A program made the translations under genes and the position numbers. 49,472 bases of DNA from an uncultured Eubacteriales bacterium (GTDB lineage: Bacteria > Bacillota > Clostridia > Christensenellales > CAG-138). The notes under the pieces are model-generated. The model worked only from the letters and a program-made list of their open reading frames with translations. It searched no databases and had not been told where the DNA came from. Below are positions 25,743 through 46,899 of this stretch, in pieces. The stretch spans positions 1 to 49,472 of the forward strand of contig ONNZ01000012.1 of NCBI GenBank assembly GCA_900319345.1. Direction: 5' to 3'. Numbering within the stretch: position 1 is the first letter of the stretch; each line of letters begins with the position of its first letter.

Positions 25743-25743
25743 T

Positions 25744-30185: not shown

Positions 30186-30677
30186 TCAATTGTGCCCTGA
30201 TATGTTCCCTAGTAGCCGTTTGATCTGAACGGGGACCTTGACGACGATCTTTATGACTGCTGTAGGCGTATCGGCGATACAGCGCGGCTTGTGGGCATCC
30301 TCCGGCCCGAGGATGACAAAGTCCCTTGCGCGCAGCAGCACCTCCCCCGAAAGCGGCGGCTCCTCATAAAACGTGATGTCATTGGCCCCTTCGTACGGGA
30401 CCTTCACCGCAAGGCCCTTTCGCGTACAAACACCAATCTTTTCCTTTCCTTCCACAAGATACTGTATGTCAAAATACCGCTCGTGAGTCTCAAAAGAAAG
30501 GGTCTTCGCGTCCATGGTCGTGTAGTGCTGAACACTTGCGCGAACTCCGCCGTCCAGGTTGATCCAGCCTTCTGGCAGTCGATCCAGATCATTCCGATCC
30601 AAAAACGCAAACGCGATCTGAAACTTGTCCGCCGTAAAATCATAGTCGTATTGCGTCCCGATCGTTCCAAATACCAT
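30186..30677 (-). CDS. YhcH/YjgK/YiaL-family protein
   Basis: 163 residues with the family's cupin-like core: HYTTMDAKTLSFETHERYFDIQYLVEGKEKIGV contains the conserved HxxYxDIQ motif, and FVILGPEDAHKPRC the second metal-binding histidine. One member (NanQ) is a sialate anomerase and others sit in sugar-acid operons, so mutarotation or metal-dependent handling of a sugar acid is likely. ATG 30677 follows AAAGGAG. It is the last gene of the LacI-linked array, 3 bases after a HUMPS-family gene, a pairing that recalls yiaL and sgbH of E. coli. Confidence 0.87.
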   Translation of the reverse strand: MVFGTIGTQYDYDFTADKFQIAFAFLDRNDLDRLPEGWINLDGGVRASVQHYTTMDAKTLSFETHERYFDIQYLVEGKEKIGVCTRKGLAVKVPYEGANDITFYEEPPLSGEVLLRARDFVILGPEDAHKPRCIADTPTAVIKIVVKVPVQIKRLLGNISGHN

Positions 30678-30680
30678 CTC

Positions 30681-31337
30681 TTATTCTCCTTTCCGCGCGC
30701 TGCGAATGGTATCGATCCACAGCTTGCAGACGCTGGAATCGGGTTTGCGAAGAACATAGCCGAACGTAATCCAGTCGGCTCCCTTCCGAACGGCGTCCTG
30801 CGCTTCCTCCAGATCATCGCTGGTGATCCCCAAAAGGCAGTCGCTCCTCTTGGGCAGCAGCATAGGTAGCTGATCCATTTTTTCAAGGAGCCCCATTTCC
30901 CCGTACAGCGAGGTGAAGTGGCGGCTGAACAGAAACTTTGCGCCATGTTGCACCAGTTTTTCCGCAACTGTCGCAAGATCGTCCGGCCGCACTGAAAGCT
31001 CAAAGATGGGCGTGATCCCCGCGTCGCGACAGATCTGAATGTTCCGATCGATCACGACGTCCTGATATCCGACGGTCAGCATCACATGATCTGCGCCTTG
31101 CTGCGCCGCCTGCTCGATGCACAGCGCCGCGTAGGGGCACTTATAATCCGCGACCAGTGTCACATCCTTCCCCACGGCTTTGCGCAGCATGCCGATGGCT
31201 GAATGACCGTACGTATACAGCAGTGGCGTGCCCACCTCCAGCCATTCCGCGCCGTTATCCAGCGCCATAAAAGCAATTTTCTTTGCCAGATCGATGTCTT
31301 CCACATCGATCGCCGCCTGAATCCAAGGCCGTTCCAT
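30681..31337 (-). CDS. HUMPS/OMP-decarboxylase superfamily protein (hexulose-phosphate synthase or ketogulonate-phosphate decarboxylase-like)
   Basis: 218 residues forming one TIM barrel. IQAAIDVEDIDLAKKIA and WLEVGTPLLYTYG match the entry of 3-hexulose-6-phosphate synthases, and LVADYKCPYAA aligns with the catalytic DxKxxD strand. The lysine is kept but the last aspartate is replaced by proline, so the usual decarboxylase or aldolase chemistry may differ. ADWITFGYVLRKPDS would bind phosphate in typical members, but the classic glycine-rich grip is weak. Product unknown. It lies 3 bases before the YhcH gene and 84 after the MATE gene. ATG 31337 follows AGGAGGAG. Confidence 0.78.
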   Translation of the reverse strand: MERPWIQAAIDVEDIDLAKKIAFMALDNGAEWLEVGTPLLYTYGHSAIGMLRKAVGKDVTLVADYKCPYAALCIEQAAQQGADHVMLTVGYQDVVIDRNIQICRDAGITPIFELSVRPDDLATVAEKLVQHGAKFLFSRHFTSLYGEMGLLEKMDQLPMLLPKRSDCLLGITSDDLEEAQDAVRKGADWITFGYVLRKPDSSVCKLWIDTIRSARKGE

Positions 31338-31421
31338 ACTCCTCCTTTTGCGCAGCGTTGCGCCGATCAGTCCATAAAAGAGTTCTTATACCAGAATGCG
31401 CCTCATTAAAAATCCGCTCAA

Positions 31422-32807
31422 TCAAGGTCTAGCAGCGCCGATCCTGGTTCCCACCGTCTGTTCGACCCTTCGAAAATGCTTCATGAACAGCAACGTCGTC
31501 ATTAGATCGGAAGCAATCTCCGATATGGGCCAGCTCCACCAGATTCGATCAATATTTCCCGTTCGAAACAACAGGATCGCCGTCGGGATACGCACGAGCT
31601 GTCGGATCAGGATAAAGAGGATCGCATAGCGACTCTTACCCGTCGACTGAAAGAACGCGTTCATGATCGCGATGAAGCCGGATGGCAGATAGGTGGTCGC
31701 GATAATCGAAAAGCACGCAAAGCCCATGCGAAATGTTTCGCCCGACAGGTGAAAGAGCTGCATCAGCCTGCCGGAAAACAGCATGCAGATCGACATGCAC
31801 AAAAAGCTCCACAGCGCCGATATGAGCTGCGCCTGGAAAAACACCGACTTCAGTTTCGGCGTGTCCCTCCTCCCTACATAGAAGGAAAATAGCGTCATGG
31901 TTCCGATGGAGATCGCCTGGCGCGGCAGCATCAAAAAGGTTTCGATACGGTTATAAATCCCAAAGACTGCATTGGCGGTATCGTGGTGGGCGATCAGCAG
32001 ACGATGGATGAAATAATACCCCACGGCGGTCAGGATGCTCACCATGGATGCCGGGATGCCCACCGAAACGATGCTGCGGACGGTTTCCCGATCCGGCGGC
32101 ACCGTTCTGAACAGCTTCGTCACCAGCTCACCTTTCGTCCGAAGCAGGAAGAAAAACGCTGACGCCGCCGCCACAAGCTGCCCCGTTAGTGTCGCGATAA
32201 CAGCGCCCTGCATGCCCAAGCCCTTAAACCTGCCTGCTCCAAAGATCAGGAACGGGTCCAGCAGGAGGTTGACAGTAAGCCCCGTGATCTGACTGACCAT
32301 GGAAAGCTTCGGGACCTGAATGGCCTGCAGTATCCGCTCAAACGTGATCTGCAACGCCGTCAAGACGCAAAAAGTCGCGGCCGGCAGCAGATATACGCAA
32401 CCATACTCAATCACGAGTAGGTGCTCGGAGCTGGCCGCGAAATATGGTCTGACGAAAAATCGCCCGCCCACGGCGATACCTGCCGCCAGCAGCGCCTGCA
32501 GCAGCAGTCCGCTGCACACACCCTTCCTTGCCGACAGCAGCGATCGCTCCCCCATCGCTTTCGCGATTTGCACGTTCATGCCAGTGGCAATACCGATGAA
32601 CAGCGTATTGAGGATCGTTTGCAGGACGGAAGCCAGCGCCAGCGCGGATAATGCTTCCTCCCCCAGTACAGAAAGGAAGAAGCTGTCGATCAGATGATAC
32701 ACGTTCTGCGCAAGCGACGTGATCGCGATCGGAAGGGAAAGTCGAAGGATCTCCTTTCGGACGGCGACGCGATCTATCGGCACTTTCTCCTGGAACCCAT
32801 CCGACAT
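31422..32807 (-). CDS. MATE-family cation-coupled transporter
   Basis: 461 residues with twelve membrane segments in the MATE pattern: RLSLPIAITSLAQNVYHLIDSFFLSVLGEEALSALALA at the start and the repeat-like GIPASMVSILTAVGYYFIHRLL in the second half. It should export an organic compound against sodium or protons. In this cluster it may remove a toxic intermediate or end product. Starts at 32807, 32831 and 32858 (GTG) are possible; 32807 lies one base after the preceding stop, while 32831 has GAGAGG close by. A MATE gene inside a catabolic array is uncommon. Confidence 0.88.
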   Translation of the reverse strand: MSDGFQEKVPIDRVAVRKEILRLSLPIAITSLAQNVYHLIDSFFLSVLGEEALSALALASVLQTILNTLFIGIATGMNVQIAKAMGERSLLSARKGVCSGLLLQALLAAGIAVGGRFFVRPYFAASSEHLLVIEYGCVYLLPAATFCVLTALQITFERILQAIQVPKLSMVSQITGLTVNLLLDPFLIFGAGRFKGLGMQGAVIATLTGQLVAAASAFFFLLRTKGELVTKLFRTVPPDRETVRSIVSVGIPASMVSILTAVGYYFIHRLLIAHHDTANAVFGIYNRIETFLMLPRQAISIGTMTLFSFYVGRRDTPKLKSVFFQAQLISALWSFLCMSICMLFSGRLMQLFHLSGETFRMGFACFSIIATTYLPSGFIAIMNAFFQSTGKSRYAILFILIRQLVRIPTAILLFRTGNIDRIWWSWPISEIASDLMTTLLFMKHFRRVEQTVGTRIGAARP

Positions 32808-32808
32808 A

Positions 32809-34779
32809 TCACAGGTCGCAGGCGACGTCATGGGCCTCTCGTATGGCCGTGGCCACACTTCCGATCCGATGGGCGTCGCCGATCCGGACGATCCTCTTTT
32901 TACAACCGATCGACTCCTCCGTCAGCGTCATGTCCGGCTGCATGCCAAAGGCAGCCACCGCCGTATCGAAGGGGTAGTTCGTTCGCTCACCAGTAAGCGT
33001 GTTTTCCGTTGTGACAAAGCCCTCGCTGATACAGAGGACCTTCTCGTTGGGACGCATTTGGACCCCGTTTTTCTGCAGCAGGAACAGCAAAGCCCCCCGC
33101 GTCGTGGGTTCCTCCTGGATTGCGATGCTCGAGATCGCCTCGATCAGCACAATGTGCTTTCCCCGTTCGCTGAGAAAATGCGCCGTCTCCGCCCCGACCT
33201 GTCCGCCGCCTAGCACAACGACGCTTTCCCCGGTCTTCGCGCCACGCAAAACCGCATTCGCCGTCAAGACGTTTGCCCCATTGATCCCGGGGATCGGCGG
33301 AAGGATCGGTTTCGCTCCTGTCGCAATCAAAATCGTGTCGGCTTTCGTGTTGCGGATCATTTCCGGATACACCTTTTCTCCAAGATGGATCCGAACGTTG
33401 GGTAAGGGGGCGAGCTTTGCGCGATAATATTGCGCGATGTTCTGGAGCGTCTGTTTGCAAGGCGGCGCAGAGGCAATTTGGATCTGCCCGCCGCACAGTG
33501 TTTTCGACGCTTCATACAGATCGACCTGGCACCCTCTCCTGCCAAGGGTATACGCCGCCTCCAGACCCGCCGGCCCAGCGCCGACGATCAGGATCGCCTC
33601 TTTCAGCGGCAAAGGCGTCTCCCGTTCCACGGATTCCCTGCCCGCGAACGGATTGAACGCGCAGCGGATCGGAAGCTTCTTTTGGATCCGCTGCCCGATG
33701 CAGTAGTTGCAGTTCAAACAGCGGCGCAGCTCCTCTTCCCTGCCCGTCGCGACCTTGTTCACCCAATCCGGCTCTGCGATTAGTGACCGTGCGATGCCCA
33801 CAAAATCGGACCATCCCTCGCGAAGATGCGCTTCCACAAGCTGCGGATCGGTGAGCCGTCCTCCGTTGATGACCGGAACGCTGACCACATTCTTCACAGC
33901 CCGCGCGAAGGCACGGTTCGCGTCCGGCTCCACATAGATCGGCGGAAACGATCGCCGTAGCGGATCTAGAAGGCCCGCAGTAACGTCAAACGCCGCTATG
34001 CCCGCTTGCTCCAGCCGCGGCAGAAAGGAGAGCGTTTCCTCCAACCCGCGGCCAGCCTCACCCATCTCATCGACTGAGAGACGCAACACCAGCGGAAAAT
34101 CCTTTCCTGCTTCCCGCTGACACGCTTCGACCAGCTCAAAAACGATCCGCCAGCGGTTCTCTGCGTTTCCACCATAGGCGTCCGTCCGGTGATTGTACAG
34201 CGGCGACAAAAACTCCGCCAGCAGATAGCTGCCCAGCGCATGAATATAGAACACATCGAAGCCCGCTCGCCGTGCCCGCCAGGCGCATCTACCATACGCC
34301 GCCACAGTCCTTTGGATCTCATCCATCGTCAGAGCACGGGTCTTGGGCTGGGTCGCCGTCTCCTCTAAAGCCGATGGGCCAACGCGCTGTGCGCGCTCCC
34401 GATCCTTTTCTGGATATGGTTCTCCGTTTCCCCGCGCGCCACCGCCGATGGAGACCAGAGCTGCGATCTTGGCGCCCTCTCGATGCACCGCTTCCGTGAG
34501 GTCGCTGAGCATGGGAATGTATGCATCGCTGTCGATGCGCAAGGAACCGGCATACGGATCCAGGGGATCCACGGCGGAATTGCCTTGGATCGAATGCAAC
34601 ACGATCATACCGGCCCCGCCTCTGGCGCGTCGGCGATAGAACTCGATGATTTGTGGCGTGCACTCTCCGAAAACCGATGCGTAGAGTGTTTCCGTCGGAT
34701 TCATAATGACGCGGTTGCGGATCGACACCGTTCCGATCCGTCCTTCCGCAAACAGATGGGGATATGCACCGGTGCTCAT
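32809..34779 (-). CDS. Fe-S flavoenzyme of the old-yellow-enzyme/2,4-dienoyl-CoA reductase type
   Basis: 656 residues. An FMN TIM barrel (about 8-340) has LYNHRTDAYGGNAENRW; the iron-sulfur motif CLNCNYC plus a fourth cysteine gives ligands 354, 357, 360 and 373; FAD/NAD Rossmann segments ILIVGAGPAGLEAAYTLG and VVVLGGGQVGAETAHFL follow. Relatives reduce enoyl-CoA, bile-acid enones (BaiCD/BaiH) or demethylate trimethylamine. The active-site stretch reads HALGSYLL where dienoyl-CoA reductases have HGAHGYLL, so one catalytic-site residue differs. ATG 34779 overlaps the MFS stop in ATGA and has AAGGA upstream. Confidence 0.9.
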   Translation of the reverse strand: MSTGAYPHLFAEGRIGTVSIRNRVIMNPTETLYASVFGECTPQIIEFYRRRARGGAGMIVLHSIQGNSAVDPLDPYAGSLRIDSDAYIPMLSDLTEAVHREGAKIAALVSIGGGARGNGEPYPEKDRERAQRVGPSALEETATQPKTRALTMDEIQRTVAAYGRCAWRARRAGFDVFYIHALGSYLLAEFLSPLYNHRTDAYGGNAENRWRIVFELVEACQREAGKDFPLVLRLSVDEMGEAGRGLEETLSFLPRLEQAGIAAFDVTAGLLDPLRRSFPPIYVEPDANRAFARAVKNVVSVPVINGGRLTDPQLVEAHLREGWSDFVGIARSLIAEPDWVNKVATGREEELRRCLNCNYCIGQRIQKKLPIRCAFNPFAGRESVERETPLPLKEAILIVGAGPAGLEAAYTLGRRGCQVDLYEASKTLCGGQIQIASAPPCKQTLQNIAQYYRAKLAPLPNVRIHLGEKVYPEMIRNTKADTILIATGAKPILPPIPGINGANVLTANAVLRGAKTGESVVVLGGGQVGAETAHFLSERGKHIVLIEAISSIAIQEEPTTRGALLFLLQKNGVQMRPNEKVLCISEGFVTTENTLTGERTNYPFDTAVAAFGMQPDMTLTEESIGCKKRIVRIGDAHRIGSVATAIREAHDVACDL

Positions 34780-36005
34780 CGTTCCTTCTCTCCTTGCTCC
34801 CATTTCTTTGTTTTCAGCAATGCCGTCAGGGCGATGCACACCACGAACATGATGCAGCAAAGGGTCATAATTAGGTGGATGCCAGAAACGCTGTCAGCGA
34901 CCCCGCCCAGAAGGGTTGGGCAGACGCAGCCACCGAAAAACACAGATACGCCCATAATGAGGCCATTTGCGGTGCCGATCAGCCGTTCAGGCAGCTCCTG
35001 GCCGGGAATGTAATAGATGAACAGGGAAACGGTGGCCGCCGCCCAGTTACCGAACATCACATAGCCAGCGACGCTGGCTTTGGATCCAGGAAAGATCGTC
35101 ATCAGCAGGGGCGTGACCAAACATATGACAAAGGTCGTCAGCATCACGTTCCTGCCGGAAAAGCGATCCGCCAGCGCTGGGATCAGGATACTGATCGGAA
35201 TATAGATGAGACCCATGGCGGACAGCAGCACCCCCTTCAATTCCGTTCCGATCCCGGCCACATTGGTGAGGTACAGGGGCCCGAAAATGGTCAGCGTCAG
35301 CTTTGCCGCACATTCGAACACGCCGATGAGCAAACAGAACAGAAATGTCCGATTTTTCAGCAGTTCGCCCAGCGCCGTGAAAAAGCTGCCCGCCTTCTTT
35401 CCGTCGGAAGTCTGCTTTTCAAAGGATACCTCCCTCACCGTAAACTGCATGACCAGCGTTGCCATGAGAAGCAGCAGGCCGCTCAGAATAAACGCGCCAC
35501 GCCATGTGAACCGTATGGCAACAGCCGTCAGCAGGATCGGTCCGAGGGTGCTGGCGATGACCGCAGAGCCGGCCGAAACGAATCCGCTCCGTTTTCCGAA
35601 ATCGTCCCTTACCAGGTTTTTTCCCAAGATGGAAACGAGCATGGAAAGCGTCGCGCCGACACAGCAGCCCCAAAGGAACCGCAGCGCCAACAGCGGCACG
35701 AACGAATTGACCAGCGCGGACAGTATGGAAAAAATACTTGCCAGGACCAAACTTGGAACGATCCATATCTTCCTTTTTCCGGTCCGGTCCGCAAGAATGC
35801 CGATCACCACAGATGAAACAGCCTTGGTGCACCATACGGCTGAATTCAAAGCGGAGTACTGCGACGCGGTGATGTGTAGCTCCTTCATAAACACATCCGC
35901 GAAAAATGTGATTCCGTCCGCTCCCAGCATCATAAAACCATAGATCAGGAAGAACAGGACGGAAAGATAGTTCACATACGCGGTAGAACACGATTTTTCC
36001 TGCAT
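34776..36005 (-). CDS. MFS transporter
   Basis: 409 residues with twelve membrane segments. The loop between helices 2 and 3 reads GILADRTGKRK, the MFS signature, and helix 5 has GSAVIASTLGPILLTAVAIRFTWRGAF. It probably moves an organic anion: many relatives carry carboxylates. It is embedded between the ABC importer genes and the flavoenzyme gene, 12 bases after the former and overlapping the latter. Direction (uptake or export) cannot be told. ATG 36005. Confidence 0.87.
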   Translation of the reverse strand: MQEKSCSTAYVNYLSVLFFLIYGFMMLGADGITFFADVFMKELHITASQYSALNSAVWCTKAVSSVVIGILADRTGKRKIWIVPSLVLASIFSILSALVNSFVPLLALRFLWGCCVGATLSMLVSILGKNLVRDDFGKRSGFVSAGSAVIASTLGPILLTAVAIRFTWRGAFILSGLLLLMATLVMQFTVREVSFEKQTSDGKKAGSFFTALGELLKNRTFLFCLLIGVFECAAKLTLTIFGPLYLTNVAGIGTELKGVLLSAMGLIYIPISILIPALADRFSGRNVMLTTFVICLVTPLLMTIFPGSKASVAGYVMFGNWAAATVSLFIYYIPGQELPERLIGTANGLIMGVSVFFGGCVCPTLLGGVADSVSGIHLIMTLCCIMFVVCIALTALLKTKKWEQGEKER

Positions 36006-36017
36006 GAAGCCCTCCGT

Positions 36018-37031
36018 TTATTCTTGATTCAGGATCGTCCGGAGGTTATGGCATGCGACCTTATGGCCTTCTGAGTACGGTTTCAGTTCCGGCATGGTCT
36101 GTTTGCACGTTTCCGTAGCGTACTTGCAGCGCGGATGGAAGGGGCATCCTTTCGGCGGATCGATGGGGCTCGGGATCTCGTTCTCCAGGACGATCCTCTG
36201 CCGCGTTTTTTCCACTTCGTAGTCCGCAATCGGGATGGCCGACAGCAGGGCGTTCGTATATGGATGAAGCGGATTGCGATACAGCTCCTCCGAAGAGGTG
36301 ACTTCAACGAGCTTGCCGAGATACATCACGCCGATGTCGTCGCTGATATGCCTCACCACCGCAAGATCATGGGCGATGAACACATACGTCAGTCCGAGCT
36401 TTTTCTGCAGATCCTCAAACAGATTGATGACCTGCGCCTGGATGGAAACGTCCAGTGCGGAAACCGGTTCGTCGCAGATGATCAGCTTCGGATTGCATGC
36501 AAGGGAGCGCGCGATCCCTACGCGTTGACGCTGTCCACCCGAAAGCTCGTGAGGATAGCGGGATCGCATGATCGGATCCAGGCCGACCAGGGTCAGCAGC
36601 TCGTCTACCTTCGCCTTGCGGTCCTTGGGAAGGACATCCTTCCGGCCGCTGGCCACGATGGCTTCCAAAATGATAGAACCGATGGACTGCCGCGGGTCCA
36701 ACGACCCGTAAGGGTCCTGGAAAATGATCTGGATCTCATGCCGGAAGGGACGGATCTGCGCAGGGGTCAAATGCGTGATGTCCCTGCCCCGATACATGAC
36801 CTTTCCGTCAGTCGGTTCATACATGCGAAGGATGCAACGACCGGCCGTTGTCTTTCCGCATCCGCTTTCACCGACGAGTCCGAAGGTCTTCCCCTCCTCG
36901 ATCTCGAAGGAAATACCGTCAACGGCTTTCACGTGGGCTACTGTTTTCTGCAGCAGTCCCTTGCGGACGGGAAAATACATCTTCAGATCCTCTACCTTCA
37001 GGAACGGGACTTTCTTGGAATCTTCAGACAT
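36018..37031 (-). CDS. Peptide-type ABC importer ATPase (OppF/DppF)
   Basis: 337 residues. Walker A GESGCGKTTAGR, signature LSGGQRQRVGIARSL, Walker B LIICDEPVSALD and the family C-terminus with cysteines (GCPFHPRCKYATETCKQ), an Fe-S-type motif of Opp/Dpp ATPases, are all present. It starts at ATG 37031 (GGGAG nine bases upstream) or at ATG 37040. It overlaps the OppD gene by 8 bases and together they energise the DppBC-like permease. Confidence 0.95.
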   Translation of the reverse strand: MSEDSKKVPFLKVEDLKMYFPVRKGLLQKTVAHVKAVDGISFEIEEGKTFGLVGESGCGKTTAGRCILRMYEPTDGKVMYRGRDITHLTPAQIRPFRHEIQIIFQDPYGSLDPRQSIGSIILEAIVASGRKDVLPKDRKAKVDELLTLVGLDPIMRSRYPHELSGGQRQRVGIARSLACNPKLIICDEPVSALDVSIQAQVINLFEDLQKKLGLTYVFIAHDLAVVRHISDDIGVMYLGKLVEVTSSEELYRNPLHPYTNALLSAIPIADYEVEKTRQRIVLENEIPSPIDPPKGCPFHPRCKYATETCKQTMPELKPYSEGHKVACHNLRTILNQE

Positions 37032-38025
37032 CTTCTCCATCTCCCTTCATCCGCCAGCAAGCCGACATATGTATGTTGCCGTCGATGCGCGTCAACGGCG
37101 GAATGCCCTTTTCCCTGCAAACGTCGCATGCGCAGGTGCAGCGCGGGAGAAAGGCGCACCGATCCGGCAGATCGATGAGCCGCGGCGGGACGCCGTTTAT
37201 GGGCACGAGCGCTTCTGAACGGTCCCTGTCAAGGCGCGGCACCGAAGCAAGCAGTCCGATCGTATAAGGATGCTTCGGATTGTTGATGATATCGTAGGTG
37301 GTGCCAGACTCGATAATCCGACCCGCATACATAACATAGATGCGCTGTGCATAACGAGCGACAAGGCCGAGATTGTGGGTCACGATGATCAGGGACGTGT
37401 GGTTATTATGTACTACCTCGATCAGCTTCTCCATGATTTGCGCCTGCGTTGTCACGTCCAACGCCGTTGTCGGTTCGTCCGCAATGATCAGTTTGGCATC
37501 GCAGGAGATAGCCATGGCGATCATTACCCGCTGCCGCATGCCGCCGCTCATCTGGAAGGGATAATCCTTCATGCGCTGCTCCGCCTCGGGGATGCCCACC
37601 TGCTTTAGCAGGGAAACAGCAAGCTTCCATGCATCCTCTCGTTTCAGCTCCTTATGTGTGCGGATCATTTCCACCAGCTGATACCCGACAGTCAACACCG
37701 GGTTGAGGGACGTCATCGGCTCCTGAAACACCATGGAAATACCCGAGCCGCGCACGGCCATCATCTCCTTGGATTTAGGCTTATACTGCAAAAGGTCCTT
37801 CCCCTCGAACAGCACTTCGCCGCTGAGGATCCTCCCCGGGGGCGTCTGAATGAGCTGCATCACCGACATCTGCGTAACGGACTTTCCGCAGCCGCTTTCG
37901 CCAACGATGGCGACGATCTCCTCCCGGTCCACGTAATAGGAAACGTCCGAAACAGCCTTGACCTCTCCGTTGTCCGTGAAAAAAGACGTATGGAGATTCC
38001 GTACTTCCAACAGATGCTCGCTCAT
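37024..38025 (-). CDS. Peptide-type ABC importer ATPase (OppD/DppD)
   Basis: 333 residues with Walker A GESGCGKSVTQ, signature MSGGMRQRVMIAMAI, Walker B LIIADEPTTALD, and the C-terminal cysteine cluster CAFLPRCTCACDVC. ATG 38025 overlaps the permease stop in ATGA. Partner of the OppF-like ATPase downstream. Confidence 0.95.
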   Translation of the reverse strand: MSEHLLEVRNLHTSFFTDNGEVKAVSDVSYYVDREEIVAIVGESGCGKSVTQMSVMQLIQTPPGRILSGEVLFEGKDLLQYKPKSKEMMAVRGSGISMVFQEPMTSLNPVLTVGYQLVEMIRTHKELKREDAWKLAVSLLKQVGIPEAEQRMKDYPFQMSGGMRQRVMIAMAISCDAKLIIADEPTTALDVTTQAQIMEKLIEVVHNNHTSLIIVTHNLGLVARYAQRIYVMYAGRIIESGTTYDIINNPKHPYTIGLLASVPRLDRDRSEALVPINGVPPRLIDLPDRCAFLPRCTCACDVCREKGIPPLTRIDGNIHMSACWRMKGDGEDV

Positions 38026-39841: not shown

Positions 39842-39874
39842 GGCGATTCTCCTTTCACGTAGTGTAGAAAAGGA

Positions 39875-39912
39875 GGGGACTGCTATAAAGCAGGCACCAT
39901 ATAGCAGTCCCC
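39875..39912 (-). terminator. Intercistronic stem-loop (partial terminator or mRNA stabiliser)
   Basis: A perfect 13-bp stem (GGGGACTGCTATA / TATAGCAGTCCCC) with a 12-base loop, followed on the minus strand by TCCTTTTC. It lies between the abundant binding protein and the permease genes, the usual place for differential expression of ABC importers. Confidence 0.8.
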
Positions 39913-39944
39913 ATCGCTAAGCGTTGGAATACAGCGGAAACGGA

Positions 39945-41609
39945 TTATTTATCCAGCCAAACGTGGGCAGAACCTTCACCGAACAGACCGGTATCCAGAT
40001 ACGTCCAATCCTTGACATAATCCTGCACGAAACAGATATCGGACAGAGAGAAGATCGGGTACCAGAGCACGTATTTATCCTGCAGCAGGACCTGCGCCTC
40101 GCGGATATGCTTCTGCTCGTCCGCGCTGGTGAAGGAGTGTACAGCGCCTTCAACGGCAGCGTCCAGATCGTCAGGATGGAGGAAGCATCCCTTGCCCAGC
40201 GCAAGAGCGGTGCTCTCAAGAACAGTCTTGGCATACATGCCCTTGAACTTGGTGGTGACGGCGGGCTCGTAGGTAGCGGTGTGGAGGATCATACCGTAAT
40301 CCCAGTCGTTGATCTTGTTGACGAATGCGGCGCTCTCCAAACGGTTCAGCTTCACGTTGATGCCGATCTTGGCCAGATAGCCTTGAATGATCGTGCCGAG
40401 CTCCAACAGGTTATCGTTGTACTTGAAGGTGATCTGGGTGTCGAAGCCATTCTCATAGCCGGCTTCCTTCAACAGCTCTTTTGCCTTCTCAGGATTGTAC
40501 TCAAAGCCCTTCACCTCGGGATTGTAGTAGGGGCTGCCGGGCAAGGCCCACTGATTCGTCAGCGTTGCGAAGCCGTAGTTGCACTGCTCGTTGATCGTCT
40601 CGGAATCGATGGCGTAGCAGACCGCCTGGCGGACGCGGATGTCATGGAAGGGATCGTCCTCATCCTGGCAGTTGAAGCCAACGACGTAGAGCTGCTCAGA
40701 CTTGGCATAAGGCTGCCAATGGTAGCCGGCCGCCTTTAGATCGGAAGCGGGCGCAAGCTCGAAGTTTTCGCCGTAAATAACGTCGATCTCTTTGGCTTCG
40801 AACGCAGCCTGCGCAACCAGGGACTCATTGTAGATATGGACCTCGACGCCGTCAAGATATACGGGGCCGTTCCAGTAGTTCGGGTTCTTTTCATAGACGA
40901 TCTTTTCGTCTTCGATCCACTCCTTGAACACAAAGGGCCCGGTGCCCACGGGATGGTTGTAGGTGTAGTCCACACCATAGGTGTCGAACGCCTGCTTGGA
41001 ATACATCATACCGGCCCGGTTCGTGAGGTTGAACAGCAGCGCGATGTTCTGAGAGCTGAGCTTGAACTCAACGGTATACTTGTCCAGGCAGTTGACTTCC
41101 GCCACATTGCCAAGGTACTGCGTGCCATACTTGGAATTATCACGATAGTACTCGATGCACCACTTGATAACTTCGGCGTTGAATTCCGAACCGTCATGGA
41201 AGTAAATGCCCTCCTTCGCCTTCATCGTGAGAGTCATGTTCGTTTCGTCCATCTTGTACCAGTCCACGAGGTAGGGCTTGATCTCACCAGTCTGCTGATC
41301 ATACTCCAGCAAAGACTCCATGCAGAAACTAAGGCTGCAGTTGTCTCTGAGCGCCAGACCGCCGTACCAGGAATAGTCGTTTACGTTCGCAAGCTGAGCG
41401 ATCTTCAGAACGCCGCCCTCTTTCGGGGTGCCGGCGTTCGGCTGCGACTGCTCCGTCTTGGTTTCCGTCTTGGCTGCCGGGGCATTCTGATTGGATGCTG
41501 CAGCAGGCTTCTGTTCCGTGCTGGGATTCTCCGCCGCCTTCGGCGCACAGCTGATCAGCATGGCGACGACCAACAGCATCGAAACGATACAAAGCAGAGT
41601 CTTTTTCAT
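39945..41609 (-). CDS. Peptide/opine-type solute-binding lipoprotein (SBP family 5)
   Basis: 554 residues. The lipoprotein signal ends LISCAP with Cys21; an Ala/Gln/Thr-rich linker follows to about 65. Family 5 features are GGVLKIAQ, FHDGSEFNAEVIKWCIEYYRD (the DGxxxxAxDV signature), VGTGPFVFKEW and DIRVRQAVCYAID. Members bind peptides, nickel, opines or small organic acids. The catabolic neighbours suggest a non-peptide ligand. ATG 41609 follows AAAGGA. Confidence 0.93.
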   Translation of the reverse strand: MKKTLLCIVSMLLVVAMLISCAPKAAENPSTEQKPAAASNQNAPAAKTETKTEQSQPNAGTPKEGGVLKIAQLANVNDYSWYGGLALRDNCSLSFCMESLLEYDQQTGEIKPYLVDWYKMDETNMTLTMKAKEGIYFHDGSEFNAEVIKWCIEYYRDNSKYGTQYLGNVAEVNCLDKYTVEFKLSSQNIALLFNLTNRAGMMYSKQAFDTYGVDYTYNHPVGTGPFVFKEWIEDEKIVYEKNPNYWNGPVYLDGVEVHIYNESLVAQAAFEAKEIDVIYGENFELAPASDLKAAGYHWQPYAKSEQLYVVGFNCQDEDDPFHDIRVRQAVCYAIDSETINEQCNYGFATLTNQWALPGSPYYNPEVKGFEYNPEKAKELLKEAGYENGFDTQITFKYNDNLLELGTIIQGYLAKIGINVKLNRLESAAFVNKINDWDYGMILHTATYEPAVTTKFKGMYAKTVLESTALALGKGCFLHPDDLDAAVEGAVHSFTSADEQKHIREAQVLLQDKYVLWYPIFSLSDICFVQDYVKDWTYLDTGLFGEGSAHVWLDK

Positions 41610-41641
41610 GTTCTTCCTTTCTCCTTTATCGTTTTTTTGTG

Positions 41642-42580
41642 TTATTCCGGTTTCACTCTGTCCGCCGGTATGAACCCATGGTGATAGAACATCTTATAGT
41701 TGCCCTTCAGATCCAGATCGGGATCGCTCAGTATCTCCTGCTCCCGTGAAAACCATTTGTCAAAATCCATCATGGTCGCCGGCGCGATCTCCTTCGGCGC
41801 GACGCGGTTGGTATCCTTATAGCAGTTGTCCTGCCGCCGGAACACCTGCACGCCATAATCCAGCATGGACTGCATGGCGCTGGTCTGCAGATAATGAACG
41901 CCGGTGAAAACGAAACCCAGCTTGGCGATCTCCGCCAGGTTGACGTGATCGTCCGCATTCAGATCCGGGAACCACTTCCAGCCCGGGACCCGCTTGGACA
42001 CGAAGTCGCACATCTCCATCTTGTCCCCGTCGTAGGGATTGATCCCGAAATGGATCAGGACCATATCCGCGCCGACGTCGATATAATGGTTGCAGCGATC
42101 GCAGGCCGCCTGAAGCCCCTCGGTGGGCTGATACTCCGTGCGGGCGACCAGGATGCAGTCGGTGCCCTTCAGGGCCATGGCCGCCGCCTTGAACCGCTCC
42201 TTGGCTTCTTTAATGTCCAGGGAGCCCTTCAGGCCGATCTCGTTCAAGTCCGTCATCAGCACGCCGCCCGCGCCTGCGGCGGCAAGCAGTTCGGCCGTCC
42301 GATACGCGTTCAGGGCTCTTCCGAATCCTTCCTCCGCGTCAACGATCATTGGCAGATTGGAATACCGGCAGATGCGCCGTGTCGCTTCCACAACGTCCGT
42401 CTGCGTCAGAAGACCCAGATCGGGCAGACCGTAGCTGTTGGCCAGCTCCGCACTGCTCAGCACCGTTGCCTTGAAGCCGCATTCCTCCACGGCTCTTGCC
42501 GAAATACAGTCATAGATCTCCGGCGCAAGGACATAGGGTTCCGTCTCAAACAGCTGCCGCATCGTACATTTCATAGACAT
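41642..42580 (-). CDS. ICL/PEP-mutase superfamily enzyme, paralog 1
   Basis: 312 residues in the isocitrate lyase/phosphoenolpyruvate mutase fold (RPAPEIYDC-like start YVLAPEIYDCISA, LSSAELANSYGLPD, MIVDAEEGFG, ILVARTEY). These enzymes break or form a C-C or C-P bond next to a 2-oxo acid with magnesium. The metal motif reads DAEEGFG (81-87) where typical members have DADTGYG, and LMTDLNE replaces the usual IEDQ, so the active site is non-standard. No lysine-cysteine loop of isocitrate lyase is seen. It is a tandem copy of the next gene upstream, 24 bases away, and may form a heteromer with it. Overall call: a lyase for a hydroxy- or oxo-diacid. Confidence 0.82.
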   Translation of the reverse strand: MSMKCTMRQLFETEPYVLAPEIYDCISARAVEECGFKATVLSSAELANSYGLPDLGLLTQTDVVEATRRICRYSNLPMIVDAEEGFGRALNAYRTAELLAAAGAGGVLMTDLNEIGLKGSLDIKEAKERFKAAAMALKGTDCILVARTEYQPTEGLQAACDRCNHYIDVGADMVLIHFGINPYDGDKMEMCDFVSKRVPGWKWFPDLNADDHVNLAEIAKLGFVFTGVHYLQTSAMQSMLDYGVQVFRRQDNCYKDTNRVAPKEIAPATMMDFDKWFSREQEILSDPDLDLKGNYKMFYHHGFIPADRVKPE

Positions 42581-42604
42581 ACGCTTTTCTCCTTTACCGC
42601 ACCG

Positions 42605-43516
42605 TCAGACAAATCGACGAAACATTTTGTAATTGCCTTTGTTAAGGATATCGCTATCCTGCAGCAGATCGCTTTCGCGCTTGTACCATTCCTTGAATCC
42701 GATGGAGTACGGATCTGGCGCGTTCAGCGGTTTTTCCGCTTTCTCATAGACGTAGCAGTTATCCTGCCGCTCGAACACGTGCATACCGTAGTCGTACATG
42801 CCCTGCATGGCGCTTGTCCGGCAATAGTGGGCGCCGACGAAATTGAATCCCAGCTTCGCCATCTCGGAAAGATTGACGCCCCTGTCGCTCTCCTGCAGAT
42901 CCGGGAACCACTTCCATCCCGGCACGTGCTTGGCGATCTCTTCGCAGACCTCAGACTTGTTCGGATTCGCCGCTTTATTGATCCCAAAGTGGATCAGCGT
43001 CATTTCGGCGCCCAGATCGAGATAGCGGTTGCACCGGTCGTAGGCGAGCTGCGGGTTCTCCGGCGTGAACTCCGTTCTGGCCACCAGAATGCACTTTGTT
43101 CCCGCCAGGCCGGCTTTCGCCGCTTTGAAGCGAAGCACCGCTTCCTCGATGGGGAGCATGCCCTTGATGCCGATATCGACGAGGTCGGTGATCAAGATGC
43201 CGCCCGCGCCAGCTTCGGCCAGCCGTTCTGCCGTCAGATAGGCGTGCAGCGGACGTCCGAAACCTTCCTCTGCGTCCACGATCATCGGCAATGGGGAACA
43301 GCGGCAGATCCTGCGGGTCACATCCACGAAATCATCCAGCGTCAGGAGCCCCAGATCCGGATAGCCGTAGCTGTTGGCAAATTCCGAACTGCTCAGGACC
43401 GTCGCTTCGAACCCGCACGCTTCGACGCATTTCGCGGAAATGCAGTCATAGATCTCGGGCGCAAGCACGTACGGTCTGGACTGCAGCAATTCCGGAATCG
43501 TTTTTTGCATTGGCAT
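42605..43516 (-). CDS. ICL/PEP-mutase superfamily enzyme, paralog 2
   Basis: 303 residues, about half identical by eye to the next gene, with the same order YVLAPEIYDCISAKCVEACGF, LSSSEFANSYGYPDLGLL, MIVDAEEGFG, ITDLVDIGIKG, ILVARTEF, LIHFGIN and KGNYKMF. It shares the altered metal motif DAEEGFG and ITD for IED, so both copies belong to one unusual subfamily. It differs mainly in the C-terminal 60 residues. ATG 43516 follows AGGAGG. The pair lies between the cyclase gene and the binding-protein gene. Confidence 0.82.
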   Translation of the reverse strand: MPMQKTIPELLQSRPYVLAPEIYDCISAKCVEACGFEATVLSSSEFANSYGYPDLGLLTLDDFVDVTRRICRCSPLPMIVDAEEGFGRPLHAYLTAERLAEAGAGGILITDLVDIGIKGMLPIEEAVLRFKAAKAGLAGTKCILVARTEFTPENPQLAYDRCNRYLDLGAEMTLIHFGINKAANPNKSEVCEEIAKHVPGWKWFPDLQESDRGVNLSEMAKLGFNFVGAHYCRTSAMQGMYDYGMHVFERQDNCYVYEKAEKPLNAPDPYSIGFKEWYKRESDLLQDSDILNKGNYKMFRRFV

Positions 43517-43536
43517 ATTGAGATTTCCTCCTTCAA

Positions 43537-44280
43537 TTATTCTCCATCAAACTCTTTTAATCCCTCGATCGCATATACCCGGACCGGACAAGAATCGAGG
43601 CCTATGATCGGCAGCGGCGTATAACTGATAAAGAACGTATCGCTCTTCAGCAGCTCCAAATTTTGGAGCACCTCCAGGAACAGGCAGTTTTGCGCCATCA
43701 GGATGTCATGGAACGGCTTGACGTTCTCGTTGCTGTCCTCAATGGAAACCCCGTCGCCAAAGCCGACGCACTTTGCGCCGCGGGCGGCGAGCCACTTGGC
43801 GCTGTCCTCGCCGATGAGCAGACGGTGATCATCCGGCCCGTTCGTTGCGGGCGTGAACGGCGGCAGCTTATGGGGGCTGTCCAAAATGACGGTGTCGCCC
43901 GGCTGCATCCGCGCGCCGATGGCTTTCTCCAGATCCGCGCCGGTGATCTGATGATTCTCCGGCTGATCCAGCACGGCGTAGATGCAGCGCCCCATGAAGT
44001 TCGTCAGCGGCAGCTCCGCAACGCTGGGCCAGTCCTCGCTGTGATGGTACGGGCACTCGCAATGGGTGCCCAGGTGGCTTGTCAGATCCATGATCGTATG
44101 GAAATCAGGTATCGGGCCGCCCGTATTGAACCGCCAAAGGCGGCAACGCCGGCTTTCGGTGTTCGGATCGAGCACCTTCGTCAGATCAACGATGTGCAGA
44201 CCGCCCATCGTGTACTCCTTCGGCGGAAGCTGTTCAGGAACTTGTTTCGGGTTTCCCGCGACCCAGTCATACTCTCCCAT
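43537..44280 (-). CDS. Cyclase-family metal-dependent hydrolase (kynurenine formamidase-like)
   Basis: 247 residues. LTSHLGTHCECPYHH is the HxGTHxDxPxH metal motif with Glu in place of the usual Asp. LHIVDLTKVLDPNTESRR at the start and SAKWLAARGAKCVGFGDGVSIED later match PF04199. Members hydrolyse amide, lactam or formyl groups (kynurenine formamidase, isatin hydrolase). It probably opens a ring or releases an acid for the following lyases. ATG 44280 follows AAGGAGAC. It starts 18 bases after the reductase gene. Confidence 0.87.
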   Translation of the reverse strand: MGEYDWVAGNPKQVPEQLPPKEYTMGGLHIVDLTKVLDPNTESRRCRLWRFNTGGPIPDFHTIMDLTSHLGTHCECPYHHSEDWPSVAELPLTNFMGRCIYAVLDQPENHQITGADLEKAIGARMQPGDTVILDSPHKLPPFTPATNGPDDHRLLIGEDSAKWLAARGAKCVGFGDGVSIEDSNENVKPFHDILMAQNCLFLEVLQNLELLKSDTFFISYTPLPIIGLDSCPVRVYAIEGLKEFDGE

Positions 44281-44297
44281 GCTGCTGTCTCCTTTAT

Positions 44298-45215
44298 TTA
44301 TTGCTTTGGCTTCTGTTCTAAAGCGTGGATCAGCCGAACAATCATCTCGTGGTATGGGACCGCGATCTTCAGCTTCTCGGCAAACGCAACGATGCTGCCG
44401 CTGATCGTATCGACCTCGGTGCGCCGGCCTTCCTTAATGTCCGCATAAATCGAAGTGTACCCGTTTTTCGCGTTGCGGCAAACGGTCTCCACGCCGACGA
44501 TCGCTTCCGCCTCGTCAAATCGAGCGAGCCCTTCCGCGTTCGCGACTGCAACCGCCTCGCGGCACAGCCGCCGCATCAGCTCGTGGGCGTATTCATTCTC
44601 GACCAAATATCCAAGCGGCGCCTGTAAAACAGCGGTCAAAGCGCTCGCCGCCGTGTTGGTGAACAGCTTGGTCCAGATCTGCTTCTTTATCTCGTTGCTC
44701 GTTACGCAGTTCAAGCCGCACGCCGTAAACGTCTCAGCGATCGGCGAGAGAACCTCGCTTCCGCCGTCCAGCAGGCCGATGGAGGTCATGCCCACGCCGC
44801 CATGCTGCACATACCCGTTGCTGATCACGGAGCTGTTGTGCTGGGTGGAACCGATGATGACGTGCTTCCGATCCGCGAAACGCAGCAGCTCGGCTTCATG
44901 CCCCGCGCCGTTCTGCAGCGACATGATATAGGTATCCTTTCCGATCAGGCCGCGGTTGGCGGACAACGCCGACTCGGTATACATCGCCTTGACAAACACA
45001 AGGACAAGATCGACGGCGCCGATCATCTTTGTATCCATGACGGCGGTGGGACGATATTCCGCATCACAATCCTTTTCCCGGACACGTACCCCGTCCCTGT
45101 TGATCTTCTCCACCCGAAGGGGATCGACTTCAACCAGCCAAACTTCGTTCCGCCGTGACAGATACCCGCCGAACAGCATCCCCATCGCGCCAGCGCCCAG
45201 AACCGCAATCCTCAT
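44298..45215 (-). CDS. Ketopantoate reductase-family NADP-dependent oxidoreductase
   Basis: 305 residues. The N-terminal Rossmann motif is VLGAGAMGMLFGGYL, followed by VDLVLVFVKAMYT and SLQNGAG; the helical domain has IKKQIWTKLFTNTAASALTAVL with the family lysine and asparagine, and the acidic EVDTISGSIV near the end. PanE proper makes pantoate, but no panB or panC is linked, and relatives reduce other branched 2-oxo acids. In this array it more likely interconverts a 2-oxo and a 2-hydroxy acid. It is the first gene after the regulated promoter, ATG 45215 with AAGGAG. Confidence 0.87.
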   Translation of the reverse strand: MRIAVLGAGAMGMLFGGYLSRRNEVWLVEVDPLRVEKINRDGVRVREKDCDAEYRPTAVMDTKMIGAVDLVLVFVKAMYTESALSANRGLIGKDTYIMSLQNGAGHEAELLRFADRKHVIIGSTQHNSSVISNGYVQHGGVGMTSIGLLDGGSEVLSPIAETFTACGLNCVTSNEIKKQIWTKLFTNTAASALTAVLQAPLGYLVENEYAHELMRRLCREAVAVANAEGLARFDEAEAIVGVETVCRNAKNGYTSIYADIKEGRRTEVDTISGSIVAFAEKLKIAVPYHEMIVRLIHALEQKPKQ

Positions 45216-45255: not shown

Positions 45256-45269
45256 TGCAATCGATTACA
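45256..45269. promoter_or_regulatory. LacI-type operator O1 at the catabolic promoter
   Basis: TGCAATCGATTACA, a near-palindrome with the central CG typical of LacI-family sites. It covers the predicted start of transcription of the catabolic operon, so the repressor would block initiation. Confidence 0.75.
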
Positions 45270-45275: not shown

Positions 45276-45304
45276 ATTATAGAGGAATCAGCTTCGGAAA
45301 GCAA
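45276..45304 (-). promoter_or_regulatory. Sigma-A promoter of the catabolic operon
   Basis: Minus strand: -35 TTGCTT (45299-45304), 17-base spacer, perfect -10 TATAAT (45276-45281). Transcription would begin near 45269, at operator O1. Confidence 0.72.
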
Positions 45305-45363
45305 GTGGTTTTCTAAAAATAATTTCGATTAATCGGCAAAACCTCTTAAATAGCGCATTATTT

Positions 45364-45379
45364 ATGGTTTTAAAACCAT
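45364..45379. promoter_or_regulatory. 16-bp palindrome of unknown role
   Basis: ATGGTTTTAAAACCAT, perfect, about 60 bases upstream of the catabolic -35 box. It may bind a second regulator; it lacks the CG centre of the LacI-type sites. Confidence 0.45.
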
Positions 45380-45468
45380 TAATTATGAAAAAATGGACCT
45401 TGGCTATTAAAAGCTGGGAGGGATGGCTCTGATCATGGCTCATCCACATATGAAAAGCATTATTTTTT

Positions 45469-45482
45469 TGCAATCGTTTCTA
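45469..45482. promoter_or_regulatory. LacI-type operator O2
   Basis: TGCAATCGTTTCTA, sharing TGCAATCG with O1 and O3. It lies 213 bases from O1, a distance that would allow DNA looping. Confidence 0.55.
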
Positions 45483-45738
45483 TATATCAGAGGCGAGAGG
45501 CAGGTTCACTTTCGCTTCAGCGGAAAGCCAGGAAGCGATCAGTCCATGCCGTGCCGGTGATCGATGAGGTCTTCCTCGGACTCGATCCTTCCCGGACCCT
45601 CATAAGGGATAACTGATCCCATTCGATCCCTTGCCGGATCCCGTCGACTGGCGGCCAACATCGTCTCGCATGGGGTGCACGCCTGTCGTTCGACCCATAT
45701 TCTTTGCTTTTTTACAGATCATCTCATTCGTTTTAATG

Positions 45739-45752
45739 TGCAATCGATTTCT
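45739..45752. promoter_or_regulatory. LacI-type operator O3
   Basis: TGCAATCGATTTCT, sharing the first eleven bases of O1. It lies about 105 bases upstream of the -35 box of the regulator gene and so could serve in autoregulation or looping. Confidence 0.6.
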
Positions 45753-45857
45753 GCATATGGTGTCATCAGCAGAAAAAAACGGATCGTCAAATCCTCCGAG
45801 ACCGTGTCAAAACTCATGTGATTGATGTTTTTATTTCTGACACTGATTGCAAAACCA

Positions 45858-45886
45858 TTGACAAACCAGGCAAACGCGTCTAAAAT
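45858..45886 (+). promoter_or_regulatory. Sigma-A promoter of the LacI-family gene
   Basis: Consensus -35 TTGACA (45858-45863), 17-base spacer, -10 TAAAAT (45881-45886). Transcription would start about 10-15 bases before the ATG, leaving just room for the GGGGGG ribosome site. Confidence 0.8.
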
Positions 45887-45906
45887 AAACGTAATTGGGG
45901 GGAATT

Positions 45907-46899
45907 ATGCAAGTTACGATCTATGATATCGCCAAAATGGCAAATGTTTCTGCAAGTACCGTTTCTCGCGTCGTTAACAACAAACAGAACGTCAATCCGA
46001 AGACCCGAGCCAAGATCATGAAGCTCCTTGCGGAAAACAATTACGTTCCAAACGAAGCGGCACGGGGCCTGGTCATGCAATCGTCCCACATGATCGGCAT
46101 TCTGATCACCGATATTCGCACGACGCAACACACCGACGGCATCTACTATATCGAGCGGGAGCTTTCCGCCCATGGATATTCCTGCCTGATCCACAATACC
46201 GGACGTGACGAAAGCAACTGGATCAACTATATCCAGCTGTTGAGCCAGCGCAAGATCGAAGCCCTTGTGCTGATGGGCTCCATTTACCAGTCCGACGTGG
46301 TACGCGAGGCCATCTCCCTCTACCTTCCCTCGATCCCCGTGGTCATCTGCAACGGATATTTCAATGCGCCGAATGTTTACGGCCTTGTTTCCGACGAATA
46401 CAACGGCGTGATCGAATGCGTTGAACTGCTGGCAAAAAAGGGACGGAAGCATCCCTCCTTCCTGATGAACCAAACGACGCCCAGCAACGAGCAAAAGAAG
46501 CTTGGTTTCGAAGCCGGCATGGCGCGCTGCTTCCCCAATGAGGAATTGATCGTGCAGGAGTGCGGCAACGGATTTACCGAGATCTATGACGCCACCATCC
46601 GCATGCTGGAGCAGTTTCCCAAGATCGACGGCATCATCTATTCCGAAGATATGCTCGCGGCGGTCGGTCTGCGCGCTCTCGCGGATCGAAATCTGCGCGT
46701 TCCTGAGGATGTGGCCGTCATCGGCATCAACAACTCCGACTATGCAAAGCTCAGCATCCCGACGCTGACCTCTCTCGACAATATGCTGTACGACGTTTCC
46801 ATGACCGCCGCGCGGAACATCCTCGCCCTGCTCTCCGGGCAGAGGGTCAGCAAAAAGATGCTGATCTGCACGGAAATCGAAGAACGACAATCAACCTGA
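45907..46899 (+). CDS. LacI-family transcriptional regulator
   Basis: 330 residues. HTH and hinge: VTIYDIAKMANVSASTVSRVVNNKQNVNPKTRAKIMKLLAENNYVPNEAARGL (about 3-57). The ligand domain (about 62-325) has IGILITDIR, IPVVICNG and EDVAVIGINNSDYAKLSIPTLTSLD. It should repress the divergent 14-gene operon through the TGCAATCG sites and be released by a substrate or intermediate. ATG 45907 follows a GGGGGG ribosome site and is preferred to the frame starting 12 bases earlier. Confidence 0.93.
   Translation: MQVTIYDIAKMANVSASTVSRVVNNKQNVNPKTRAKIMKLLAENNYVPNEAARGLVMQSSHMIGILITDIRTTQHTDGIYYIERELSAHGYSCLIHNTGRDESNWINYIQLLSQRKIEALVLMGSIYQSDVVREAISLYLPSIPVVICNGYFNAPNVYGLVSDEYNGVIECVELLAKKGRKHPSFLMNQTTPSNEQKKLGFEAGMARCFPNEELIVQECGNGFTEIYDATIRMLEQFPKIDGIIYSEDMLAAVGLRALADRNLRVPEDVAVIGINNSDYAKLSIPTLTSLDNMLYDVSMTAARNILALLSGQRVSKKMLICTEIEERQST

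Follow-up and report, generated by a model that had tools for sequence, protein, structure and literature searches.

The window analysed here, contig ONNZ01000012.1 of an uncultured Eubacteriales bacterium (49,472 nucleotides, assembly GCA_900319345.1), carries an array of 14 minus-strand genes (30186-45215) and a divergent plus-strand lacI gene (45895-46899). From the promoter onwards, the array encodes an ApbA/PanE-type reductase (ApbA), a cyclase-family metal hydrolase (the cyclase), two members of the isocitrate lyase/phosphoenolpyruvate mutase (ICL/PEPM) superfamily (paralog 2, then paralog 1), SBP_bac_5, OppB, OppC, OppD and OppF (i.e. a complete Opp/Dpp importer with binding protein, two permeases and two ATPases), a major facilitator superfamily (MFS) transporter, a flavoenzyme of the old yellow enzyme (OYE) type, a MATE transporter, a HUMPS-like protein and a YhcH protein (Table 1). 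A first-pass annotation had described a LacI-controlled cluster of 14 minus-strand genes of these families; gene calls and family searches confirmed it, with the correction that lacI, divergent and on the plus strand, makes a fifteenth gene. With likely start codons, the 13 junctions measure 17, 20, 24, 32, 103, -13, -4, -17, 12, -4, -23, 84 and 3 bases: the tight spacing claimed earlier holds for 11 of them, which overlap or span at most 32 bases, and those of 103 and 84 bases exceed its range. All 13 terminator-like sites in a scan are intragenic, a count under the shuffle mean (16.2). The lacI gene probably starts at ATG 45907, about 690 bases from ApbA, and for the flavoenzyme ATG 34779 is favoured over TTG 34860. 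Family searches found no kinase, L-xylulose kinase included, among the 15 genes and no peptidase, amidase, coenzyme A (CoA) gene or glycosidase in the unit.

Table 1. Features of the cluster, its control region and the insert that carries it (positions in the window).
Feature	Position	Strand	Basis or remark
Inserted segment carrying the cluster, about 22.9 kb	24208-47149		ends approximate; flanks 60-83 bases apart in relatives
TnpV of the insert	24370-24741		
Large serine recombinase of the insert	25690-27489	+	PF00239, PF07508, PF13408, PF14287
MobQ relaxase of the insert	28395-30083	+	NF041496 241.8 bits, cut-off 200
YhcH/YjgK/YiaL family protein	30186-30677	-	PF04074 117.5 bits; TIGR00022 94.8 bits, cut-off 45.5
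HUMPS/OMP-decarboxylase-like barrel, diverged motif	30681-31337	-	PF00215 21.6 bits (below cut-off 27); NF005442 66.3 bits (cut-off 593)
MATE transporter	31422-32858	-	PF01554; ATG 32831 possible start
Fe-S flavoenzyme, OYE/2,4-dienoyl-CoA reductase type	32809-34779	-	PF00724, PF07992; C-x2-C-x2-C-x12-C in translation
MFS transporter	34776-36005	-	PF07690
OppF/DppF-type ATPase	36018-37040	-	NF008453 413 bits, cut-off 408
OppD/DppD-type ATPase	37024-38025	-	
OppC/DppC-type permease	38022-38897	-	
OppB/DppB-type permease	38885-39841	-	
Solute-binding protein SBP_bac_5, lipobox-like N terminus	39945-41609	-	PF00496; translation
ICL/PEPM superfamily paralog 1, without KxCGH loop	41642-42580	-	PF13714; model matches ICL/PEPM folds
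ICL/PEPM superfamily paralog 2, without KxCGH loop	42605-43516	-	PF13714
Cyclase-family metal hydrolase	43537-44280	-	PF04199 56.2 bits, cut-off 23.1
ApbA/PanE-type reductase	44298-45215	-	PF02558, PF08546; TIGR00745 250.8 bits, cut-off 141.35
Primary operator-like site TGCAATCGATTACA	45256-45269		1 mismatch to palindrome TGCAATCGATTGCA; overlaps probable operon transcription start
Probable operon promoter TTGCTT-17-TATAAT	45276-45304	-	sequence reading; misses the promoter scan's first-hexamer threshold
Weaker operator-like site	45469-45482		3 mismatches to TGCAATCGATTGCA
Second operator-like site, divergent interval	45739-45752		2 mismatches to TGCAATCGATTGCA
Probable lacI promoter TTGACA-17-TAAAAT	45858-45886	+	promoter scan, 11/12 matches
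LacI-family regulator	45895-46899	+	PF00356, PF00532, PF13377; ATG 45907 likelier start

The anatomy of the control region, read together with the junctions, is consistent with the single operator-bearing promoter that had been proposed: a perfect TATAAT (minus strand, 45281-45276) stands 6 bases away from the primary operator-like site. Promoter-like sites as such are no more than usual in the region (12, near the shuffle mean of 10.1). The palindrome TGCAATCGATTGCA, taken with at most two mismatches, occurs at 19 sites in 13 loci (268,764 bases) versus 0-4 sites for 15 shuffled palindromes (14 distinct, one having been used twice). In what follows L numbers designate stretches and G numbers genomes, G000 being that of the window. 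Stretches L026, L044, L045, L049, L051, L052 and L081 stand outside the 13 loci of this count, and L026 has two sites with two mismatches each. Operator-like sites precede ApbA in the window, L024, L027, L029, L031, L046, L047, L048 and L050, and the SBP-Opp genes in L025; in L028 and L029 (genomes G007 and G011) they also fall between lacI and uxaE. L030 and L080 have none. The window genome holds three sites with at most two mismatches, two of them in the lacI-ApbA interval, and at three mismatches 31 sites versus 13 for a reversed control. LacI orthologs (48-79% identity, tblastn) are present in six of the other ten cyclase-bearing loci. That the cluster is one LacI-linked unit for uptake and catabolism is supported, and LacI would act as its repressor.

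Orthologs of the cyclase (at least 59% identity) were found in 11 genomes (G000, G007, G011, G040, G044, G094, G407, G562, G816, G825 and G1044), and comparison of their loci indicates that the heart of the module is ApbA with the cyclase, the other genes being modular. The loci came from a paralog 1 search of 101 relatives (nine matches, some without the cyclase), from a scan of genome contigs, which gave one locus, and from searches with the cyclase among genomes of the order (396), phylum (398) and class (391), samples that overlap; G007 and G044 came from the paralog 1 search and were not among the order-genome cyclase matches. G619 (44% identity) and G751 (37%) were left out as too distant, and G705 and G729 (31-36%) are also outside the set. 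The core is rare, because the cyclase at this identity was found in 5/396 order, 3/398 phylum and 2/391 class genomes, the window being counted each time. By tblastn on the fetched stretches, ApbA is present in 10 of the 11 loci, directly beside the cyclase in nine; G094, counted as a miss, has the cyclase and no ApbA within the 33 kb examined. A LacI ortholog occurs in seven loci (the G562 contig stops just past ApbA), the ICL/PEPM family in eight (only a fragment in G044, and at 4-5 kb in G407), Opp in six, YhcH in six (at 30% identity in G040), MATE in three (at about 40% identity or more), and the flavoenzyme, MFS and HUMPS orthologs in two each. When 299 genomes were searched for HUMPS, the only match outside the window was a distant one (30%). 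Plasmid searches recovered six records with short ABC matches when the cluster was used (megablast), and six records, all distant, when the cyclase was used. The co-occurrence in other genomes on which the first-pass annotation had staked its cluster is thus borne out for ApbA and the cyclase. The wider association that it had singled out, of the two DAEEGFG paralogs with the cyclase and the flavoenzyme, was recovered in the window genome and in one other (L031/L051) and nowhere else, the remaining cyclase loci having other paralogs or lacking them, and none having an orthologous flavoenzyme. What emerges is a rare core, widely scattered over several bacterial families within a single phylum and in most cases accompanied by one LacI-type operator.

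The full set of 15 genes was seen only in the window genome and in that second genome, a sheep-ileum Clostridia metagenome genome (G825), which has all of them in the same order and relative orientation. Protein identities between the two are 91-96% from the cyclase to OppF and 68-87% for LacI, ApbA, MFS, OYE, MATE, HUMPS and YhcH. Divergence at four-fold degenerate codon sites is 49-75% along the unit; a recent transfer between the two genomes was therefore rejected, and gene order kept at such divergence suggests selection on the whole set. In G825 (L051 5016-10985), genes resembling GH1, GH3 and GH2 follow the unit, as judged by eye from the sequence.

The cluster is located in an insert with a serine recombinase and a relaxase, which is new relative to the first-pass annotation. 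Five of six same-genus stretches (L091, L092, L093, L095 and L096) lack the insert at the same place and the sixth (L094) has the right flank only; the six were fetched from eight same-genus genomes matching the flank gene. Third-position GC is 0.63-0.77 in the cluster and 0.77-0.91 in the called flanking genes, with one exception at 0.68. Near the ends of the insert, the longest direct match is 8 bases and one inverted match has 10, none being convincing as an att repeat, so that the insert may be a single element or two nested ones. A plasmid search with the left part of the insert returned 11 records, with short matches only. As in mobilizable elements that encode a serine recombinase together with a MobQ relaxase, both genes sit at one end and the site is uninterrupted in relatives; the cargo here differs in being a 15-gene catabolic unit. 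G007 and G011, of the same genus, have their own versions of the module beside a hexuronate operon, with cyclases 89-91% and paralogs only about 30% identical. The insert is probably mobilizable and may be mobile today; if it still moves, the use of a carbon source could be gained by gene transfer.

Several neighbour lines converge on sugar acids as the substrate class, a conclusion to which we give about an even chance. (i), hexuronate genes lie in the same locus in four of the 11 cyclase loci: in G007, G011 and G040 the module has as neighbours UxaC, UxaE, a mannonate oxidoreductase-type short-chain dehydrogenase/reductase (SDR), a PfkB kinase, Gnd and a LarA-type epimerase (UxaC and UxaE of G011 were identified by Pfam), and in G044 a partial UxaC, UxaE and an SDR are downstream of ApbA-cyclase. 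(ii), in the lower-GC locus of G1044 (L080), cyclase-ApbA is less than 1 kb from YhcH, followed by a 3-dehydro-L-gulonate 2-dehydrogenase (NF009750, 375.9 bits, cut-off 316); also present are a DapA/NanA-type aldolase and a Zn dehydrogenase, neither of which reaches its equivalog cut-off. (iii), in one 20-kb stretch of G040, a PEPM-family gene and a LacI-family gene occur together with an NF009750 dehydrogenase (440.8 bits), which is separated from the PEPM gene by about 6.5 kb; among 17 genomes, this model passes its cut-off in G040, G094 and G1044. (iv), on a plasmid of Sphingopyxis sp. FD7, a 36%-identical PEPM relative lies at most 5 kb from an annotated L-idonate 5-dehydrogenase (322 bits against a cut-off of 469) and a 2-hydroxyacid dehydrogenase, with lacI and a gluconokinase nearby. 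The window genome has, on its contig 24 (L076 10395-17995), a compact hexuronate operon for a D-mannonate oxidoreductase (426.9 bits, cut-off 281), a PfkB-type kinase without clear specificity, Gnd (759.9, cut-off 426.7), a nickel-dependent putative hexonate epimerase (615.2, cut-off 500), a glucuronate isomerase, UxaC (598.2, cut-off 387), and UxaE (by Pfam), which suggests a route through gluconate. D-mannonate to D-gluconate epimerases have been reported and a hexonate substrate supposed for group 18 (PMC7583248); further epimerases were added in PMC11770544. The first-pass annotation had left the substrate unassigned; for a core that had no assigned substrate, the search may now be narrowed to sugar acids.

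A number of observations weigh against sugar acids. No hexuronate gene was found in the stretch examined in seven of the 11 loci, the window included (for G562 and G816 this stretch covers just 12.7 and 9.8 kb), and G816 has lacI-ApbA-cyclase-Opp yet neither UxaC nor UxaE in its genome. UxaE and UxaC are each found in 8/10 cyclase-bearing genomes (all but G1044) and in 1/6 and 3/6 comparison genomes, or 0/4 and 1/4 of those without a cyclase match; this contrast is small and weak, the comparison genomes having been hand-picked, with G003 and G010 not in the cyclase-match listing and only four shown to be without the cyclase. The SDR-to-UxaC operon has no operator-like site upstream in L027, L030 and L076, the NF009750 dehydrogenase has no match in the window genome, and the cluster has no kinase of its own. 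On Allorhizobium and Agrobacterium vitis plasmids, the PEPM relatives keep company with Opp-type ABC genes, UbiD, UbiX and an aminotransferase, a setting that lends sugar acids no support. Peptides, opines and metal chelates are frequent cargoes of Opp-type importers, and in G007 Liv-type importer genes stand in the place of Opp (by eye). The HUMPS-like protein is rare among the loci and scores below the HPS/KGPDC cut-offs.

The MATE, MFS and flavoenzyme genes suggest, in addition, a xenobiotic or aglycone part that a free sugar acid would not need. The cluster could accordingly be an operon for a plant aryl/acyl glycoside or glucuronide, in which Opp would import the conjugate, the cyclase-family enzyme hydrolyse an ester or lactone, the flavoenzyme reduce the unsaturated aglycone and MFS/MATE export it, the uronic acid being catabolised. 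The best NCBIfam matches of the flavoenzyme do include reducers of unsaturated ring systems, all below cut-off, the MFS, flavoenzyme and MATE genes are contiguous and kept in G825, and the glycoside hydrolase-like genes after the unit of that genome would suit such a role. We nonetheless consider this unlikely: the window unit has no glycosidase, and the flavoenzyme and MFS are not core, because their orthologs occur in only 2/11 loci. Bile-acid or bilirubin reduction was rejected for the flavoenzyme, which is far below the curated cut-offs (NF045599 bilirubin reductase 406.6 bits of 750, BaiCD 382 of 825, mycofactocin OYE 383.4 of 793.15).

The two window paralogs of the ICL/PEPM superfamily are 61-62% identical to each other. 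In an alignment of 20 family members (A1), D24, D81, D111, R147 and H229 are invariant and D206 is kept in 19, and the catalytic KxCGH loop (pattern K[KRSA]CGH) is found in none of the 20. Position 110, usually Glu, is Thr in five, including both window paralogs and one Allorhizobium protein. A1 excludes the G044 fragment and two more divergent genes (L028 3859-4779 and L029 15316-16341), which likewise lack KxCGH and also lack the A1-invariant His. A structure predicted for paralog 1 from 17 of the A1 rows (mean pLDDT 76.9, poor past residue 230) matches those of CPEP mutase, methylisocitrate lyase and the petal death protein (E 6e-19 to 1e-17, TM about 0.63-0.67, root-mean-square deviation about 12 over long alignments). 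These matches and the invariant metal-site Asp argue that the ICL/PEPM fold is kept, and the missing KxCGH that the known lyase loop is not. Compared with PrpB, ICL and petal death protein lyases, the window paralogs share the fold and the metal-site Asp and differ in lacking KxCGH, in scores far below lyase cut-offs and in a conserved P-D and H in the last strands.

The pathway proposed earlier, in which the paralogs would cleave a 2-hydroxy diacid made by ApbA, has to be weighed against these data. ApbA-type enzymes yield 2-hydroxy acids, the five residues invariant throughout A1 would suit catalysis by a lyase, and the best profile matches of the paralogs are lyases (e.g. petal death protein, dimethylmalate lyase). 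However, Asp108Ala and Cys191Ser mutants of Mycobacterium tuberculosis ICL are reported as inactive (PMC7609661), the catalytic loop is missing from every A1 member, Thr occupies position 110 in both paralogs, and no paralog is present in the stretches examined in G816, G094 and G1044. Methylisocitrate lyase itself was rejected, since the paralogs score 128.5 and 93.6 bits with the prpB NCBIfam model (cut-off 354.4). We regard such a lyase pathway as distinctly improbable: of the import, opening, reduction, lyase and export steps in the earlier reading, importer, hydrolase and reductase do stand together in one unit, and the lyase step is weakened. The paralogs mark out a branch of the superfamily that lacks the Cys loop. 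On the Allorhizobium ampelinum plasmid pAtS4e (L053 204-14915), two PEPM relatives lie beside UbiD/UbiX and an aminotransferase, and each of these relatives is accompanied by Opp-type ABC genes.

In the cyclase, H69, G71, T72, H73, E75, P77 and H79 are invariant in 11 aligned sequences and the metal motif HxGTHx[DE]xPxH is kept, with Glu for Asp. An assignment as kynurenine formamidase (KynB) was rejected (TIGR03035, 41.8 bits against 223.05). That the cyclase family includes this formamidase, together with the Opp/Dpp importer and the ketopantoate-reductase family of ApbA, could point to catabolism of a peptide, a pantothenate-like compound or another amide, the sugar-acid neighbours then being coincidental. 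We hold this to be very unlikely, as the unit has no peptidase, amidase or CoA gene, sugar-acid contexts recur in several bacterial families, and LacI and YhcH are sugar-associated. The HUMPS-like protein shares with HPS/KGPDC-type enzymes the barrel superfamily and the first Asp and Lys of the DxKxxD motif; it differs in lacking the second Asp (VADYKCPY versus VADLKTMD in 9lj9) and also the usual GR phosphate motif. Its scores are far below the curated cut-offs (TIGR03128, 3-hexulose-6-phosphate synthase, 37.2 bits of 200; NF009832, 29.7 of 250; NF009831, 26.9 of 294), and formaldehyde fixation by the ribulose monophosphate (RuMP) route was rejected on this ground.

We thus propose, rating the chances as evenly balanced, that a LacI-repressed operon on an integrated, probably mobilizable insert serves to import and catabolise a keto-aldonate or uronate (lactone-forming) sugar acid, perhaps derived from plants. 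The Opp-type importer would take the compound up, the cyclase-family hydrolase would open a lactone-like ring, YhcH may hold the sugar acid in its open form and ApbA would reduce a 2-oxo acid with NAD(P)H. Carbon-carbon or decarboxylation chemistry could fall to the HUMPS-like protein and the two paralogs, and the products may enter central metabolism, plausibly via the UxaC/UxaE/mannonate/hexonate-epimerase/Gnd route of contig 24. MFS, MATE and the flavoenzyme would be accessory, for the export of by-products and the reduction of an unsaturated or aglycone part. A bolder version, unlikely in our judgement, is a route that needs no kinase and serves an ascorbate-like lactone or keto-uronate: known steps would be taken over by a cyclase-family lactonase and an ApbA-type reductase, the paired Cys-loop-less paralogs and the HUMPS barrel with its changed metal motif would catalyse a reaction so far assigned to neither superfamily, and the whole would spread as cargo of a mobile insert.

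Among known systems, the yiaKLMNOPQRS operon of Escherichia coli has, like the window cluster, a YhcH/YiaL-family protein, a HUMPS-superfamily protein (YiaQ belongs to the HUMPS family), a reductase, a binding-protein-dependent importer, a repressor and a link to galacturonate genes, seen for the window module in its relatives. Unlike that operon, the cluster has ApbA for YiaK, the ABC importer Opp for TRAP and LacI for IclR, lacks L-xylulose kinase and pentulose epimerases, and adds the cyclase and the ICL/PEPM paralogs. In E. coli, yiaKLMNOPQRS and galacturonate genes are described as being under the control of PlaR, whose effectors are ascorbate and galacturonate (PMC6958661); YiaL is a YhcH-family protein, and for the YhcH of E. 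coli an N-acetylneuraminate anomerase function is reported (PMC8141875). The Thermotoga maritima hexuronate network shares UxaC, UxaE, mannonate oxidoreductase, nickel-dependent hexonate epimerase and Gnd with contig 24. Most of these genes also lie beside the module in relatives, and the window genome has the two loci on different contigs. The network is not known to include an ApbA, cyclase or ICL/PEPM part. The Ralstonia ascorbate pathway, attributed to Stack and colleagues (2020), reportedly uses enzymes that do not match the cluster and was set aside. No description of the gene set was found in the open-access literature searched, in line with the earlier statement that no described pathway has it.

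Three further loci have features of their own. In G044 (L050 10247-11175), a PEPM-family fragment (about 100 amino acids matched) and the partial UxaC (model positions 233-464) lie beside ApbA/cyclase, an apparent case of gene decay. The cyclase locus of G1044 (L080 12450-18473) encodes a 712-amino-acid protein distantly resembling caprolactamase alpha (86.8 bits, cut-off 1000) and a 259-amino-acid protein without family assignment. In G007, a stretch running from L027 13745 to L028 5695 contains five PEPM-family genes, an Amidohydro_2 protein, an enolase-superfamily protein and the Liv-type importer genes (by eye), with operator-like sites at both ends.

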